DNA from: Flavobacterium daejeonense DSM 17708
Lineage (GTDB): Bacteria > Bacteroidota > Bacteroidia > Flavobacteriales > Flavobacteriaceae
Reading direction: 5' to 3'
Assembly: GCF_000425425.1 (NCBI RefSeq)
Contig: NZ_AUDK01000014.1
Span: 1-64,000 of the forward strand
Length of the DNA: 64,000 nt
In this document: positions 118 through 5,837 of the stretch, one piece after another
Numbering within the stretch: position 1 is the stretch's first letter
Layout of the letters: each line of letters opens with the position of its first letter
The notes under the pieces: generated by a model
Database searches by the model: none
The model's input: only the letters and a program-made list of their open reading frames with translations
What the model was told of the DNA's origin: nothing
Translations under genes and position numbers: made by a program

Positions 118-275
118 TTTTATGGGTAAGGGAACTTGTGTCCATAAGTGAAGGAAAACACGCCAAAAAACCACCCCAAATACACCACAAAAAAAAGAGG
201 ACACTTAATACTCTTGCTATTCTCTCTCAAAACTTTTCGATAAATCCATAGTGCTGGCGGAATTTCAGCGGTTCC
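118..275. other. Gap between transposase tail and last attC-like site
   Basis: No convincing gene is seen. A weak reading frame on the minus strand (2-190) has no family resemblance and overlaps the transposase tail. If the array is an integron, this stretch would be the start of a third cassette, beginning at the GTTGAAC of 276-282 (minus strand), later truncated by the transposon. Confidence 0.3.
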
Positions 276-335
276 GTTCAACACGAGTTTCATTGTTCGG
301 CTTACAGCCGCAACGAAACTCTAGCTGTTACCAGC
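276..335 (-). repeat. attC-like site closing the CBASS cassette
   Basis: A 60-base element read on the minus strand from GCTGGTAAC (335-327) to GTTGAAC (282-276), the latter a perfect GTTRRRY core. Between them 307-321 and 285-301 pair as a stem around a 5-base loop (302-306), with two unpaired T residues on one arm and one mismatch. An imperfect stem with extrahelical bases and a length near 60 is the classic form of an attC site. Confidence 0.65.
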
Positions 336-355
336 TGGGCTTCTTCTTTCGTTGG

Positions 356-1291
356 TCATTCTTCCTGTATAATTTTCACAATGTTTCTGCAAAATGCGTC
401 ATTGTCAATAAGATTCTGAAGTGTCGTTTGAAAATTTCTTAACTCTCTTTCTTCAAGTAGTTTCTGCTGTGAAGTCTTTCCAATATGTCCTTTTCGCATA
501 AACATTTCAATTGCTTTATCAATTCCGCCTAAAGTTGTTGGCATATCATAAAGTTTCAAAACGTCCTTGCTTTGATTGTCGTAAGTTACAAAAACCGGAA
601 AATTTCTACTCGAAGTTTCAAATTGAATTTCTTTTAAAGTTTTGGATTTAAAATATACAGTTGCTCTTTTCTTAATGTCGGCATCAAGGTCTTTGGGTAT
701 TACTATGTTAAGTTCAAATTTTTTGAATATTGCATCATCAACTTTAATGTCCGATTTTGTGTGTATTGATTCGCAAACAATAGAAACAAAATTGTAAAAG
801 TATCCAATAGCAAGAACTGTAGAAGGTAGCAGTCCTAATTCTCCAAGTGTGATTTTCTCATCAATTGTTTTCGATATTCTCTCAATTTCATTATTCAAGC
901 TAGTTGAATTGGCAAGGGGAATAGTTTTTTCAAATTGTGGAACGGTAATTCCAAGTAAGTCTGTTGGAAGTTTAGCACCACTTTCCTGAATAACAAATGC
1001 TCTAGAAGGTCCAAGCCGACCAAGAAAAAGTCCAAACTCAAAAATTACATTGTCCCTTGGTGTGTCAAAAGATTTATCTCTAATGGTTGATAAATCGTCC
1101 TTGGTTGCAACAAGAATTCCAAAATCAAACAAACTAGCTTCTTTCAATAACGTGTAAAGAAAACTCTCGTTAAATTTGAAAATATCATCTGTCCAAAGGT
1201 AACATTCGTATTTTGTTCCTAATTGCAACTTTATATATTCTGCAATTTCAAGACCTTCTTTAGAAGAGCCAATAAATATTCTTGTTTTCAT
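356..1291 (-). CDS. cap12: TIR-STING CBASS effector (Cap12 type), NAD+ hydrolase
   Basis: 311 residues. Residues 1-125 form a TIR-like nucleotide-binding domain of the CAP12/Pycsar effector kind: it begins with IFIGSSKEGLEIA and holds the RDNVIFEFGLFLG stretch in which Glu85 is the likely catalytic residue. Residues 150-311 look like bacterial STING, with LPSTVLAIGYFYNFV at 155-169 and YDMPTTLGG at 248-256. In the characterised homologue of Sphingobacterium faecium, cyclic di-GMP binding to STING makes the protein form filaments and the TIR destroys NAD+, killing the infected cell. The start codon overlaps the stop of the CD-NTase by one base (TAATG at 1289-1293), so the two are translationally coupled. 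Length and domain order match the family; function is by homology. Confidence 0.88.
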   Translation of the reverse strand: MKTRIFIGSSKEGLEIAEYIKLQLGTKYECYLWTDDIFKFNESFLYTLLKEASLFDFGILVATKDDLSTIRDKSFDTPRDNVIFEFGLFLGRLGPSRAFVIQESGAKLPTDLLGITVPQFEKTIPLANSTSLNNEIERISKTIDEKITLGELGLLPSTVLAIGYFYNFVSIVCESIHTKSDIKVDDAIFKKFELNIVIPKDLDADIKKRATVYFKSKTLKEIQFETSSRNFPVFVTYDNQSKDVLKLYDMPTTLGGIDKAIEMFMRKGHIGKTSQQKLLEERELRNFQTTLQNLIDNDAFCRNIVKIIQEE

Positions 1292-2322
1292 TATCCGTAG
1301 ATTATGTTTTCATCAATGCGTTTAAATTGCTTTCCAAGCTCTTCAGTGATGTCTTCAATAAGCTCGTCAAGTTCGAGTTTTAATTTTTTAAGCTCAACGA
1401 TTTTGATTTCGCTTGTTTCAAAGACTCTCTCTTTGCCGTTTGGAGACATTAAGCTCTCTCTATATAATTTGTCTGTGATAACCTTATCAAGTTGTCTAGA
1501 GCCTTCATTAAGCAAAAGTAATTCTTGATATTTGGGTTTGTTCAATGAGTGATTTTCCATAGCGAATACAATACTTGTAATCTCAAAACTTGATAGGTTA
1601 ATTTCATAATCAGCATCAACTTTGAGAGTTTTTAAAAGTCTCACCAATTTAGCAAGCCCACCGTTTACCAAGGAGTTCTTTGCCTTAACATTAGCGATAT
1701 GCAAAAATGGGAAGTCCTTTTGTCTTGAATGGTTGTCTTTATCGTAAATGTGAACACCACGATACTTCTCGTTGGAAGTGGATTGATAGTCTTGTGTATT
1801 TACCCAATTTGCAGGAACAACATCAACCTTTCTTTTTGGGTTAGTCGGAAAGACTTGAATTGATTTAGCTTTAGAATTGTCAACTTGGTTATAAATTGCA
1901 TTTAGGGCATTGTAACACTCCTGTCTCAATTCCTTTAGGTCAGCCAAAGGGTCACCTTGATATGGGCTTATTGGTGTCAATGGGGGTTCCATACTATGAT
2001 ACTTTTCAGTAAATACAAGTATGTCAATGTCGCTGTGTAGCTTGATATGTGTGTCAGTCTCCACAGAACCTTGATGGCGATATTCAACAGTTAGTCCCTT
2101 ATTATTTAATCCTTTAGTTAAGTTGTTCCGAATGTTTTCAGAAGCTACATATGTGTTATTTGTGTAACTAGGGTCTATTGGACTCATAGATTCAAGTGCA
2201 TATTTTACACTTTCACTAATTCTGATGTCTGAGAATGATTCCGATAACACAGCTTTTTGTAGCTGGTCATCAAGTCGTCTCTTTTTTAATTTCTCAAGTC
2301 TTTGAGTGTAGTTTTTTTTCAT
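1291..2322 (-). CDS. cdnE: CBASS CD-NTase, CdnE-like cyclic dinucleotide synthase
   Basis: 343 residues with a DNA polymerase beta-like nucleotidyltransferase fold. The active-site signature is visible: Gly85-Ser86, then S-D-I-D with Asp98 and Asp100, and a third acidic residue Asp167 in KRKVDVVPANW. In CBASS such enzymes sense phage infection and make a cyclic nucleotide second messenger. Paired with TIR-STING, the expected product is 3'3'-cyclic di-GMP, as for STING-linked CdnE enzymes. No Cap2/Cap3 or HORMA/TRIP13 genes follow, so this is the minimal type I layout. The gene opens right after an attC-like junction, with no obvious promoter of its own. The clade letter is inferred from the STING partner. 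Confidence 0.87.
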   Translation of the reverse strand: MKKNYTQRLEKLKKRRLDDQLQKAVLSESFSDIRISESVKYALESMSPIDPSYTNNTYVASENIRNNLTKGLNNKGLTVEYRHQGSVETDTHIKLHSDIDILVFTEKYHSMEPPLTPISPYQGDPLADLKELRQECYNALNAIYNQVDNSKAKSIQVFPTNPKRKVDVVPANWVNTQDYQSTSNEKYRGVHIYDKDNHSRQKDFPFLHIANVKAKNSLVNGGLAKLVRLLKTLKVDADYEINLSSFEITSIVFAMENHSLNKPKYQELLLLNEGSRQLDKVITDKLYRESLMSPNGKERVFETSEIKIVELKKLKLELDELIEDITEELGKQFKRIDENIIYG

Positions 2323-2355
2323 TGTTTAATTTTTATGATTGTCGCGTCTAGCCTT

Positions 2356-2491
2356 GCTGGTAACGGTCTAGTATATGAAAAGTAGGCGATTTCGAAGCAC
2401 GAAATTTTCAGTTAAGCATAAAGATTGATACGAGCCAAAAGACTTGATTTCACTACTGTTTCGCCTATTTTTTATATACATTGTTAGGCAC
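2356..2491 (-). repeat. attC-like imperfect palindrome closing the helicase cassette
   Basis: Read on the minus strand it runs from GTGCCTAAC (2491-2483) to GTTACCAGC (2364-2356), 136 bases. The arms 2371-2389 and 2461-2479 are reverse complements at 17 of 19 positions, enclosing about 70 bases. GCCTAAC fits the RYYYAAC core. The site starts 7 bases after the helicase stop, and the next gene starts 34 bases beyond it, so it fills nearly the whole space between the two genes. Confidence 0.6.
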
Positions 2492-2498
2492 TGGCTTT

Positions 2499-4427
2499 CT
2501 ATTTTTTCCCTATTAGTTTGTCGTACCATTTCAAGTTTTTAAGTCGTTCTATTTCTGCTTTATTGGTTTGGTTTTCTTTATTCTTATTCCGTAAATCTGA
2601 TTCAATTTTCTGAAGTTTAGTTTCAAGTCCGTCCGAGTGAATTTGTGAGTCAGATAGTTTTTTCTCGGTTTGTTTTAATGCTTTTTTCAATCGTTCGATT
2701 TCATTTTCAAACTCGGAAGTTTTTCCTAAAAGCAGTTCAATGGAAGAGTTCTGTTCTGATATTTTAGTTGATTTCTCTGTAAGTTCTTGTTTTTGCAATT
2801 CAATATTTTCTTTTGCCTCTGAAAGTTCATTCTTGGTTAATTCAAGTTGCTCAATAAGCGAAGAATTCTTGTGTTTGAAGTCCAAAAGACGTTTTCCCTG
2901 TACTTCAATGAATTTCTTAAAAATATCCGTCTCAATATCATTACGGAACTTTAAAGCTCTTTTGAAAAAGTCAAATGCCGATTTGATTTTCCCTTTTCCA
3001 AAATCTTCTCTTGCTTTTTTGTAGTAGAAATCCGCTTTGCCTGTATTAAGTTGTTCCGTTATTAATGTTCCGGGTGTTTCATTTTGGGCAAATTCGATAA
3101 CTCTAGGGTCGGTTTTTATAGCATAACTGTTAAGTTGAGTTTTAAGCATTAAACCACTAAAGGAAGTACAACGACTTAAAGCGACATAAACCTGTCCTGG
3201 AGCAAATGCTCTTCCTAAATCAGCAATTACTTTCTCAAACGTTAAACCTTGGCTCTTATGTACGGTAATTGCCCAAGCCAAACGAATAGGGAATTGTTCA
3301 AATGTTCCTACAATTTCTTCTACAATCTTTTTTTGCTCTCTGTTGTATGAATACTGAATATTATCCCAAACTGCTCTTTCAACTTCAACTTCGGATTCAT
3401 CATCAAATACAACTGTGATAGTAGCTTCTTCAAGTTCTTTTATCTTTCCAATTTTACCGTTGTAAAATCTTTTGTACTCGCCTGTGTCATTTTTGATAAA
3501 CATTATTTGAGCACCAACTTTTAATTTTAAGTAATGGTCTGTCGGTTTATGTTTATCTGGAAAAGTGCCCGTTACATTCGCTTCATAAGTAAATAATTCA
3601 GTTGTGAGTTGATTTAGCTTTGTAAGGTTCGTTTCGTTTACAATGTTATTGTGGGTGGCAAGAATTATATAATCACTCCCGTTTCCTGAAAATGTCGGAT
3701 TGTATTTTGCATTAAGAACACTAAAATCATTTGTATTTACTTGACTTACTCGAACCCTATTCAATAAATCAATAAATTCTTGTTCGTTCTGCCTGTAGAT
3801 TTTCTTTAACTCAATATAAAGAGGTGTGTTCTGTTCTATGATTTTTGAACTAAAGAAAAAAGGGGTTTTGTAGAACTGCGATAGAATTGACCATTGTTCA
3901 TTATCTGCAATTGGTGGCAATTGAAAAGTATCTCCAATTAATATAACTTGAACACCACCAAAGGGTAAATAGGGTTTTTTGCGAAAAACTTTTAAAATTC
4001 TGTCAATTACATCTAACATATCTGCTCTTACCATTGAAATTTCATCAATGATTAGCAGTTCCAAATTCTCAATTATTTCACGCTTATCTTCTCGGTACCT
4101 GAAAGTAGTATAAATTGTCTCCCTATTTTCTGTTCCCGTTGCTGTTGTTCTCAATCTTGAATCGTCAGGAACGAAAGGTCCAAAAGGTATTTGAAAAAAG
4201 GAATGAATAGTAACACCACCTGCATTTATTGCGGCAACTCCTGTTGGCGCAAGAATTACTGTGCTCTTATTTGTAGTGTCTTTTATGTATTTGAGAAATG
4301 TTGTTTTACCTGTTCCTGCTTTCCCTGTTAGGTAAACTAATTTATCTGTGTGTCGGACAAATTCAGCAGCGTTGTTAAATTCAATGTTTTCCTTGTCAAG
4401 TTCTATGTTGTCTACTGTTTCTGTCAT
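2499..4427 (-). CDS. Pif1/RecD-like superfamily 1 helicase with C-terminal coiled coil
   Basis: 642 residues. Walker A is GKAGTGKT (35-42), Walker B IIDE (126-129), followed by GDTFQLPPI (165-173), the Pif1 type of motif III. Near residues 395-440 come HKSQGLTF and VYVALSRC, the late motifs of SF1B 5'-3' DNA helicases. From about residue 540 the protein is rich in Glu, Lys and Leu, a likely coiled coil, and it ends at WYDKLIGKK. Similar proteins are frequent in Bacteroidota accessory DNA; their role is not settled. Here it lies as its own unit between the attI-like region and the attC-like palindrome, so it behaves as a cassette. A defence role is possible but not shown. Confidence 0.8.
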   Translation of the reverse strand: MTETVDNIELDKENIEFNNAAEFVRHTDKLVYLTGKAGTGKTTFLKYIKDTTNKSTVILAPTGVAAINAGGVTIHSFFQIPFGPFVPDDSRLRTTATGTENRETIYTTFRYREDKREIIENLELLIIDEISMVRADMLDVIDRILKVFRKKPYLPFGGVQVILIGDTFQLPPIADNEQWSILSQFYKTPFFFSSKIIEQNTPLYIELKKIYRQNEQEFIDLLNRVRVSQVNTNDFSVLNAKYNPTFSGNGSDYIILATHNNIVNETNLTKLNQLTTELFTYEANVTGTFPDKHKPTDHYLKLKVGAQIMFIKNDTGEYKRFYNGKIGKIKELEEATITVVFDDESEVEVERAVWDNIQYSYNREQKKIVEEIVGTFEQFPIRLAWAITVHKSQGLTFEKVIADLGRAFAPGQVYVALSRCTSFSGLMLKTQLNSYAIKTDPRVIEFAQNETPGTLITEQLNTGKADFYYKKAREDFGKGKIKSAFDFFKRALKFRNDIETDIFKKFIEVQGKRLLDFKHKNSSLIEQLELTKNELSEAKENIELQKQELTEKSTKISEQNSSIELLLGKTSEFENEIERLKKALKQTEKKLSDSQIHSDGLETKLQKIESDLRNKNKENQTNKAEIERLKNLKWYDKLIGKK

Positions 4428-4443
4428 TGTCGGTTTTTAGCTT

Positions 4444-4535
4444 GTGCCTAACTTGTTTATATGCTCAGTTTTTAATACTAAAGTTGAGCATATACCTATC
4501 TTTTTGGTTAGATATGCTCAACTGTAGTTGAGTTT
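4444..4535 (-). repeat. attI-like recombination region beside the recombinase
   Basis: Between the recombinase stop and the helicase start lie three copies of a TGAGCATAT word: inverted copies at 4458-4467 and 4485-4494 (10 of 10 complementary, 17-base spacer) and a third at 4512-4521. The last runs into a perfect 7-2-7 palindrome at 4517-4532. The cassette junction GTTAGGCAC (4452-4444, minus strand) follows directly. Such repeated recombinase-binding arms next to a core site are what attI would look like. They could also be an operator. Confidence 0.5.
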
Positions 4536-4541
4536 TATTTT

Positions 4542-5585
4542 TCATAAATCATCAAAAGGACTTTTAATTTGTTGTATGTTTTTTGTACTTACATGAGTAT
4601 AAATCTCTGTAGTTTTACTGCTATTATGCCCTAATAATTTTTGTATGTATCGCAAATCTGTTCCGCTTTCTAGCAAATGTGTAGCATAACTGTGTCGAAG
4701 CCAATGTAGCGTAACAGGTTTATTTATACCCGCCAATTTAATACTTTTTTTCAATACTTCTTCCAAACTTCTGTCAGAATATTTGTTATTTTTTCTTTGA
4801 CCTTCAAAAAGCCAAGTGCTTGGTCTGTATTCTTCATAATAGGCTCTTAATAATATCAAAATTTTGGATGATAAAGGAGTGATTCTGTCTTTTTTACCTT
4901 TACTTTGCCTGATTATAACAATACCTCTTTTAGAATCAATATCCGTTGGTTTCAAATTTAAAAGTTCGCTTCTTCGCAAACCACAACTATAAATTATACT
5001 CAGCATGGTTTTGTGTTTTAAATTACTATGGGCTTCTAATATTGCTTTCACTTCTTCTTTACTCAAAACATTCGGCAAAACTTTGGCTCGCTTGGGACGG
5101 TGAATTTTATCCACATCAATCTTGGTTTTCAAAATGGTAACAAAAAACAATTTGATAGCATTCACAATTTGATTCTGGTAGGAAGCTGATAGTTTATTTT
5201 TCAAAATATACTCATTATTAAATACAATAACATCTTCGTTAGTTATTTCGGAAATGGCTTTCTCTCTATAAAAAATCAAAAACGATTTTAACGCATCGCT
5301 ATATGTTGAAATAGTATTTTCGCTATAACGTTTGGAACGCATCCATTGTTTGAATTTTTCTATTTGTACTTGTGCTTCTTCCGAAGGAATGGTATGTGAT
5401 AATGGGGTTATTTTGAATCGGACTCTGTTTTCTTCGGTATCAGGAATATGCCATGCTGTATGTGTCTGACTCCATCGGGCGCCGTCAATTTTTTTGATGC
5501 GTTCAATCAAGTCCGCATTTTTTTCAAAATAAACAGCAATTCTATTTTCTCCTTTGTGTTTGATAGCTTTAGCGGACCATTTCAT
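4542..5585 (-). CDS. Tyrosine recombinase of the cassette array
   Basis: 347 residues. An N-terminal segment of about 65 residues precedes the usual SAM-like core-binding domain (about 70-155), then the catalytic domain with Arg204 in GLRRSE, Lys near 229-231 in SKGKKDR, His294 and Arg297 in HWLRHSYATH, His320 in LLGH and the nucleophile Tyr329 in YTHV. All catalytic positions are present. The ending SPFDDL recalls the SPLDAL end of integron integrases, but the stretch between the FEG motif and HWLRH is short, so the extra helix that marks IntI seems absent; it is a Xer/IntI-like Bacteroidota recombinase. It reads towards the array, unlike most integrons where the integrase is divergent. Confidence 0.85.
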   Translation of the reverse strand: MKWSAKAIKHKGENRIAVYFEKNADLIERIKKIDGARWSQTHTAWHIPDTEENRVRFKITPLSHTIPSEEAQVQIEKFKQWMRSKRYSENTISTYSDALKSFLIFYREKAISEITNEDVIVFNNEYILKNKLSASYQNQIVNAIKLFFVTILKTKIDVDKIHRPKRAKVLPNVLSKEEVKAILEAHSNLKHKTMLSIIYSCGLRRSELLNLKPTDIDSKRGIVIIRQSKGKKDRITPLSSKILILLRAYYEEYRPSTWLFEGQRKNNKYSDRSLEEVLKKSIKLAGINKPVTLHWLRHSYATHLLESGTDLRYIQKLLGHNSSKTTEIYTHVSTKNIQQIKSPFDDL

Positions 5586-5620: not shown

Positions 5621-5837
5621 AACCCGTTGGGTGAATTATTAAAAACGTCAGTTCGATTTTTTGTATAATCCCGACACTTCGGGACGGAACAAAAAATGTC
5701 CCGATAATTATCGGGACGAGAACCGTTTTTAATGGAATTTTTCTTGTTCCCGATACGATTTTCTTCCCGAGGCTTCGGGAGAAAATCACTCGAACTGACG
5801 AAAAATTTCATTAAAAACTAATTTCACCCAACGGGTT
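5621..5837. repeat. Nested REP-like palindromic element
   Basis: The 15-base word at 5621-5635 is repeated inverted and perfect at 5823-5837; inside it an 11-base pair (5646-5656 and 5790-5800) is also inverted. Three smaller palindromes of the CCCGA...TCGGG kind fill the middle, including a perfect 20-base one at 5698-5717. No protein frame of note. Similar CCCGATAATTATCGGG words recur at about 5243 in relative style elsewhere, for example near 55245-55262, which suggests a dispersed repeat family. Confidence 0.7.

Follow-up and report, generated by a model that had tools for sequence, protein, structure and literature searches.

The closest described system to the locus reported here is the integron (IntI, attI and attC), including its sedentary chromosomal form. 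In integrons of the Treponema type, intI is reversed and the integrase, a true IntI, reads towards the cassettes. XerCD/dif modules carry a dif-like double-strand site of 28 bp. According to PMC7790495, a tyrosine recombinase became able to work on folded single-stranded sites by acquiring the I2 helix, and according to PMC9668308, IntegronFinder requires the additional domain of IntI.

The window, i.e. the whole 64,000-nucleotide stretch of Flavobacterium daejeonense DNA that was analysed, contains a locus that resembles an integron in several respects: a recombinase lies beside cassettes that mostly point in the same direction, R' and R'' ends pair within a cassette, a GTT box is present with a G after the bottom-strand AAC, the sites are asymmetric in favor of the bottom strand, and a sequence that may correspond to attI adjoins the recombinase. 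Unlike an integron, the window has a recombinase that lacks the additional (I2) domain, carries an extra N-terminal domain, falls outside the IntI clade and reads into the array, the last as in the Treponema type; moreover, 94 of 123 sites lack the extra R''-L'' base, position +8 is always mispaired and the L stem contains G.T pairs. Because two defining features that were tested do not hold and the recombinase lies outside the IntI clade, we refer to the system as a variant rather than a member of the integrons. With archaeal XerA and with XerC-XerD, the recombinase shares the fold and the catalytic motifs, and it differs from them in grouping with IntI, in its extra N-terminal domain and in its position beside cassette arrays. 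We consider it probable (about 0.82), judging from sequence comparison, that the element at 2362-2485 is the recombination site which closes cassette 1 and links it with cassette 2, within an integron-like platform operated by the recombinase at 4542-5585. A system that is integron-like in most other respects, lacks I2 and, for the most part, the bases read by it, and occurs in 223 of 249 sampled genomes of one family would put ideas on the origin of integrons to the test and would reveal a large reservoir of mobile cassettes that includes anti-phage systems.

Two gene cassettes and the joint between them

The features of the locus are as follows:
1-329, no strand assigned: end of a repeated insertion element, adjoining the AAC of cassette 2; the same sequence occurs on contigs C35 and C30
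327-2364, minus strand: cassette 2, ending GCCCAGCTGGTAAC at 327 (signature pair 2364 to 327)
356-1291, minus strand: TIR-STING effector Cap12, cargo of cassette 2 (NF050172, 4.4e-155)
1291-2322, minus strand: CBASS oligonucleotide cyclase (CD-NTase), cargo of cassette 2 (PADLOC Cyclase, 5.2e-117)
2351-2364, minus strand: R', the start of cassette 2, GTTACCAGCAAGGC (from cassette-end pairing)
2362-2485, minus strand: attC-like recombination site, from AAC (2485-2483) to GTT (2364-2362)
2365-4452, minus strand: cassette 1 with its own site, starting GTTAGGCACAAGCT (signature pair 4452 to 2483)
2371-2389, no strand assigned: L' arm of the hairpin, GTATATGAAAAGTAGGCGA, complementary to 2461-2479 at 17 of 19 positions
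2461-2479, no strand assigned: L'' arm of the hairpin, TCGCCTATTTTTTATATAC, complementary to 2371-2389 at 17 of 19 positions
2483-2496, minus strand: R'' end of cassette 1, AGCCAGTGCCTAAC, the reverse complement of the cassette 1 start except at +7 and +8
2499-4427, minus strand: PIF1-like helicase, cargo of cassette 1 (PF05970, 3.6e-27)
4441-4525, minus strand: putative attI, a palindrome TTGAGCATAT/ATATGCTCAA followed by TATAAACAAGTT at the start of cassette 1
4542-5585, minus strand: tyrosine recombinase of 347 aa without the IntI additional domain (NF040815, 225.8 bits, cut-off 220)

Read along the minus strand, the recombinase gene (5585-4542) is followed by the palindrome and TATAAACAAGTT (4525-4450), and the first cassette opens just behind the gene. 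Cassettes 1 and 2 are arranged head-to-tail on this strand (4452 to 2483, then 2364 to 327). The cargo of cassette 2 is a bacterial antiviral defence pair (CBASS), and its TIR-STING protein has further matches to PF20300 (1.6e-38), PF10137 (5.1e-28) and the PADLOC TIR effector (4.3e-128). The cassette stops at the insertion element, where the contig ends. This element has three copies in the genome (C13, C35 and C30), each adjoining the AAC of a different cassette, as if the R'' box were targeted. A protein end of 38 aa at 1-114, which we take to resemble an IS91-type transposase, matched no Pfam or NCBIfam family.

Further cassettes are present in the same genome: one on C1 and one on C35 obey the end-pairing rule given below, and one on C30 obeys it with one extra A.C difference. 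The C1 cassette (L003:464-6186) is 5.7 kb long and carries an HTH gene, an AAA gene (PDC-S06), a methylase and one further gene; since C1 starts in other sequence, it may belong to a single array together with C13. On C30 (L223), the apparent last codons of another recombinase copy lie ~1.2 kb before the insertion element and are followed by a cassette start, GTTAGGTACAATTT, with the insertion element 1030 bases on.

The hairpin between cassettes 1 and 2 is real and represents the joint between two gene cassettes, that is, an attC-like site. It had been described as 2356-2491 with 19-bp outer arms matching at 17 of 19 positions. This degree of matching was reproduced; however, the arms are the inner (L) arms at 2371-2389 and 2461-2479, which lie inside the R boxes, and the outermost 19 bases of 2356-2491 match at only 8 of 19. 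The middle between the arms, put earlier at about 70 bases, is 71 bases long, and the ends do correspond to two different cassettes, with GTTAGGC belonging to the first and GTTACCA to the second. At both arm mismatches, A faces C on the coding (minus) strand, which corresponds to G.T on the plus strand. Arms matching at 17 or more of 19 positions around a middle of 50-110 bases occur at three places in the 64-kb window, and 20 Markov controls contained 11 such matches in total (5, 3, 2, 1 and sixteen zeros); the hairpin by itself is therefore only moderately unusual.

The fold of the plus strand at 2345-2505 has an energy of -18.7 kcal/mol (z -2.16), while that of the minus strand has -14.8 kcal/mol (z -1.13). 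Thus, the better folder is the bottom strand of the cassettes, which is the plus strand of the window, and not the minus strand named previously, with the window site's own fold being only modestly better than those of shuffled sequences. A site profile built without the copies of this genome recovered the window site at full length (E 1.3e-6, positions 1-125), the next-best match in the window having an E of 0.71. In an Rfam scan of the window, nothing reached the gathering score.

Pairing of cassette ends and fold of the site

The ends of a cassette follow a simple rule: the cassette opens with GTT, and the bases ahead of its closing AAC repeat the cassette's own start as the reverse complement. 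In the window, the pairs GTTAGGCACAAGCT/AGCCAGTGCCTAAC and GTTACCAGCAAGGC/GCCCAGCTGGTAAC depart from complementarity only at +7 and +8, and the end pairing of both cassettes shows the fixed A.C mismatch. The corresponding signature consists of GTT, six positions that match exactly, one free position, A opposite C and three further exact matches. A scan of both strands of the 64 kb with this signature returned exactly two pairs, which are the window cassettes and tile through the site; in 200 Markov sequences, the mean was 0.075 per 64-kb strand and the maximum was 2. Allowing up to 3 mismatches, the pattern TANACTAGACCGTTA occurred less often than its reversed control (111+105 vs 305+318), and motif counts were therefore abandoned for cassette-end pairing.

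Among 20 regions behind family relatives of the recombinase, 17 hold signature cassettes, 91 in total, of which 52 abut the next one. The relatives' regions of L079, L090 and L097 contained no signature cassettes; the recombinase at L079 is 77% identical to that of the window. Some links of a first chain search, e.g. in L079, proved to be due to chance. In 12 control regions that contain true IntI genes, five signature pairs turned up when both strands were scanned over 210 kb (two in L214, two in L212 and one in L221).

A larger set was formed by the best 80 of 573 confirmed stretches, referred to here as the named loci, which come from Flavobacterium, Pedobacter, Algoriphagus, Pontibacter, Bacteroidales and others; a few records, which may be misbinned, come from other phyla. 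On the forward strand of these 80, 83 signature pairs were found in 286 kb downstream of the recombinase vs one in 627 kb upstream; at least 13 of the 80 loci had contributed cassettes from which the signature was derived. At least one pair was present in 34 of the best 80; among the 29 with at least 3 kb downstream, 21 had a pair and 8 had none. In 51 of the 80 named loci, the contig runs out within 3 kb on the downstream side of the recombinase, and in 11, within 3 kb on the upstream side. A separate scan without L-arm rules gave twelve chance pairs upstream of seven loci, none of them with A opposite C and three further matches.

Another question is whether the pairing belongs to the cassette or to the site as it stands between two cassettes. 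We analysed 123 cassettes from 28 loci, in which positions +1 to +7 match by construction. Positions +9, +10 and +11, which were not used in selection, match the start of the same cassette at frequencies of 0.87, 0.92 and 0.76, compared with only 0.61, 0.51 and 0.38 for the start of the neighbor. Complementarity is thus a property of the cassette and not of the site in place, as expected if the site forms in an excised circle. Position +8 is an A and is mispaired in all 123 cassettes (A.C 107, A.G 12 and A.A 4).

For an alignment of bottom strands, 62 of 109 sites were selected and L144 was left out, giving 61 sites. They share a 16-bp stem in which 91.9% of cells are paired, compared with 32-46% for slid partners, and its covariation is 0.576 vs 0.172 after shuffling, both values being scored on the same 61-site alignment from which the stem was derived. 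Fifteen of the 16 stem pairs show changes on both sides across the 61 sites, and one pair is G.T in 60 of them. The preliminary description had regarded the middle of the element as unusually long for an attC of short type; for the whole site, ~120 bases is the usual length in this family.

The strands of these sites are not equivalent. The bottom strand folds better in 117 of the 123 reconstituted sites and in 106 of the 123 sites in place, and under even scoring, a G.T pair occurs in the L stem of the bottom strand in 122 of 123 sites, compared with 17 for the top strand. A C precedes GTT in 120 of 123, which corresponds to a G after the bottom-strand AAC. An extrahelical base on the R''-L'' arm is present in 29 of 123 sites and absent in 94 (97 under flat scoring), and an extra base on the L' arm was found in 64 of 123. 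In a comparison set of 24 IntI-type cassettes from five loci of the same phylum, by contrast, the extra base on the R''-L'' (L'') arm, scored evenly with sites oriented by the C before GTT, is present in 24 of 24 sites, +8 is Watson-Crick paired in 22 of 24 (0 of 123 in the I2-less type) and a bottom-strand G.T pair in the L stem occurs in 4 of 24. The comparison with attC made in the preliminary description is therefore borne out for the anatomy, namely a cassette joint, complementary ends specific to each cassette and arrays beside a recombinase. It does not extend to a classical attC, because the recombinase is not IntI, 94 of 123 sites lack the extra base and +8 is mispaired in 123 of 123.

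The recombinase and its surroundings

The best NCBIfam model for the recombinase at 4542-5585 is NF040815 (XerA), and its score against TIGR02249 (213.1 bits) is below the cut-off of 265. Its reading frame is open throughout. Alignments reveal that the 42-residue IntI additional domain (I2, near patch III) is missing, with a gap against IntI4 (2a3v). The distance from box I (GLRxxE) to box II (HxLRH) is 91-92 aa in 29 of 30 family relatives (one not measurable) and in all 21 measured named relatives from the best 80, compared with 133 in 27 of 30 IntI proteins (three not measurable).

In both trees, IntI forms a separate clade (100/100), and the recombinase family is its nearest kin relative to the Xer proteins, represented by just five rows of XerA, XerC and XerD (99/94, and 100/97 with more named relatives). 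In the tree with more named relatives, the recombinase family forms one group in 20% of bootstraps. A simple sister-clade reading of IntI was withdrawn since this larger tree did not uphold it; judging from the tree, IntI may be sister to the recombinase family or nested in it, both arrangements being compatible.

The recombinase also possesses an extra N-terminal domain of ~70 aa. Pfam searches with this domain gave weak matches only, mostly to families of unknown function, and its model (pLDDT 74) had no significant match in the PDB with two structure aligners. The HARP domain of SMARCAL1 (4o66), which was compared with the N-terminal domain only and matched it without significance, was the first Foldseek row (E about 1, probability 0.30); a profile search placed it second with E 0.15, the leading row having E 0.027, and it was absent from the 50 matches listed by the second aligner. 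Because no match was significant and the second aligner did not return it, the relation to HARP is a hint at most, drawn from a model. When the whole recombinase was submitted to Foldseek, the matches were recombinases, XerA and IntI4 among them, and gave no further clue to function.

Directly behind the recombinase, the motif TATANAC[A/T]AGTT is present in 8 of the 20 relatives' regions and in both copies of this genome, while the other regions have different palindromes there. The second copy (L045:7981-9024, on C35) is 78% identical, contains one in-frame TGA near its start and is followed by one cassette that fits the end-pairing rule. Upstream of the window recombinase, at 5640-5820, there is a long inverted repeat (arms matching at 17-18 of 19 at 5724-5727), and a similar sequence occurs on C14 near 75753.

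Distribution, proposed mechanism and alternative explanations

A covariance model detected the site in 223 of 249 sampled genomes of the family and in 122 of 296 of the phylum (E<=0.001 under strict filtering, with scores for 14 and 11 candidates per genome, respectively; at least 10 of the 249 genomes, the window's genome included, had supplied training sites). Relatives of the recombinase (E<=1e-60) were found in 143 of the 249 family genomes. When the two genome lists were compared by eye, the site was present in 142 of these 143, compared with 81 of the 106 others (Fisher 1.5e-9). Sites often occur in arrays beside relatives of the window recombinase; L095 contains 24 of them in 18 kb. Relatives were also encountered in records of Nitrospirae, WOR-3, Desulfurellales, Undinarchaeales and Deltaproteobacteria (L184, L185, L194, L204 and L205), which may reflect a real spread or misbinned contigs.

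The cassettes have a median length of 648 bp (258-4519), and their longest ORFs of at least 80 aa run forward in 105 of 110. Among 104 cassette proteins that were scanned, 65 Pfam families were seen, none of which matched more than three proteins, and PADLOC detected restriction and methylase genes. The window site recurs in 11 fetched loci of the same genus at 81-90% identity with other sequence on both sides, and in 8 of the 11, identity runs from within two bases of AAC to GTT. One cassette is common to G150, G034 and Algibacter onchidii at 84-89%, and another occurs twice in L095 with other neighbors.

The site, the cassette ends, the arrays, the covariation, the association with the recombinase and the presence of the same cassette in different neighborhoods can all be read from the sequences, and we infer that the recombinase at 4542-5585 carries out excision and integration via a circular intermediate. 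The mechanism proposed here is modelled on the integron scheme as outlined in PMC2727003 and PMC7790495. A cassette would comprise one or a few genes and its own site. In the excised circle, both cassette ends would pair, so that the site could fold on one strand into a long hairpin with an R box of ~10 bp, an unpaired spacer, an L stem of ~16 bp and a variable tip. Insertion of such circles by the recombinase would take place either at the attI-like sequence behind the recombinase gene or between sites, and GTT would be the point of crossover. Only the folded bottom strand would be used, its polarity given by the G.T pairs; this choice of strand by G.T pairs, which are A.C on the other strand, would replace the extrahelical bases read by the I2 helix of IntI.

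Among the alternatives, the one that survives best, itself highly improbable, is that we see the remains of a cassette system, in which homology alone now allows passive recombination between the sites. It could account for the 81 of 106 genomes that have sites and no close recombinase, for the in-frame stop in the C35 copy and for the arrays of this genome that are cut by the insertion element; however, the stem covaries, the reading frame of the window recombinase is uninterrupted, and arrays that combine similar sites with other genes are found across the phylum sample.

Slightly less probable is a classical integron in which a true IntI in the cell uses the sites and the neighboring recombinase is a bystander. 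The genome G253 would agree with this, as its sites of the I2-less type lie ~4-6 kb from a true IntI (L214) and the 20 kb fetched around that gene contained no close relative of the window recombinase. Against it, TIGR02249 matched 39 of 118 phylum genomes, none of them in the window's own family or order, and had no match in 11 genomes of this family, the window's included, with 0 of 14 in the control genomes, which thus provide no positive control. Moreover, the IntI-type sites differ in the L'' arm base and at +8 as described above, and in 12 IntI-bearing genomes (58 to 150 candidates scored per genome), the site model matched 6, always off the stretch of the IntI gene except in G253.

Transfer by the host XerC/XerD at dif-like sites, as in pdif modules, would be compatible with the affiliation of the recombinase to the Xer superfamily and with the 11 bases of R' plus A, which is about the length of an Xer arm. 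We regard it as less probable again, as the sites are not of the dif-like 28-bp kind, being ~120 bases long with a covarying 16-bp stem; the ends pair within the cassette; and the recombinase, which adjoins the array, falls with IntI in the trees and is separated there from the few rows of XerC, XerD and XerA. Least probable of all are transcription terminators or structured repeats without a recombination function: the sites are hairpins between genes, and a pattern scan marked terminator-like patterns nearby (e.g. 320-339 and 4458-4494), but it found none at 2340-2500, the ends pair more within the cassette than in place, and the neighbors differ among the 11 same-genus loci and one cassette is common to three genomes, which speaks against the terminator of fixed sequence that the preliminary description had kept in view.

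The integron-like platform run by the window recombinase remains our preferred reading; counting against it are the regions that lack signature cassettes, the many sites without a close recombinase, the extra bases found on the R''-L'' and L' arms of some sites, the modest fold of the window site and the sites of G253. For its wider form, we see the chances as evenly balanced: Bacteroidota would possess a second integron lineage without I2, older than or parallel to the known one, that captures cassettes by way of folded single strands, takes its polarity from G.T pairs and a fixed A.C mismatch and has, perhaps, the N-terminal domain in place of I2. If this is true, IntI acquired I2 when a cassette system was already in place, and certain resistance genes now found in Gammaproteobacteria (tet(X3) and blaVEB-3) left their former hosts as its first cassettes. 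In a literature search that covered few subscription papers and no preprints, neither an integron lacking the additional domain nor arrays of this kind in Bacteroidota were described, and a prior description may therefore exist.

Two plasmids bear on the origin of these resistance genes. In PMC7473080, the 'xerD' gene beside tet(X) is left unexplained; the I2-less system could explain its presence there, although beside tet(X14), in the same paper, xerD points the other way. On an Acinetobacter plasmid (L249:5019-7040, NZ_CP041297.1), a cut-off recombinase relative, 54% identical, is followed by a palindrome and GTTATGTGCCATTT and then by tet(X3); at the 3' end, AAACGGCTACTAAC is a partial R'' only, and a full match was not found there. 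The 'xerD' beside tet(X) may thus be an integrase of the I2-less kind, with tet(X3) as its first cassette. On a Klebsiella plasmid (L250:5142-6763, NZ_CP084417.1), a cut-off relative, 51% identical, is followed by GTTAGCGGTAATTT and blaVEB-3, behind which no R'' matching GTTAGCGGTAATTT was found. The plasmid relatives carry the NCBI product name 'site-specific tyrosine recombinase/integron integrase'. With L-arm rules, the signature scan returned nothing in four plasmid stretches; without these rules, one cassette fits, in a stretch from Chryseobacterium.
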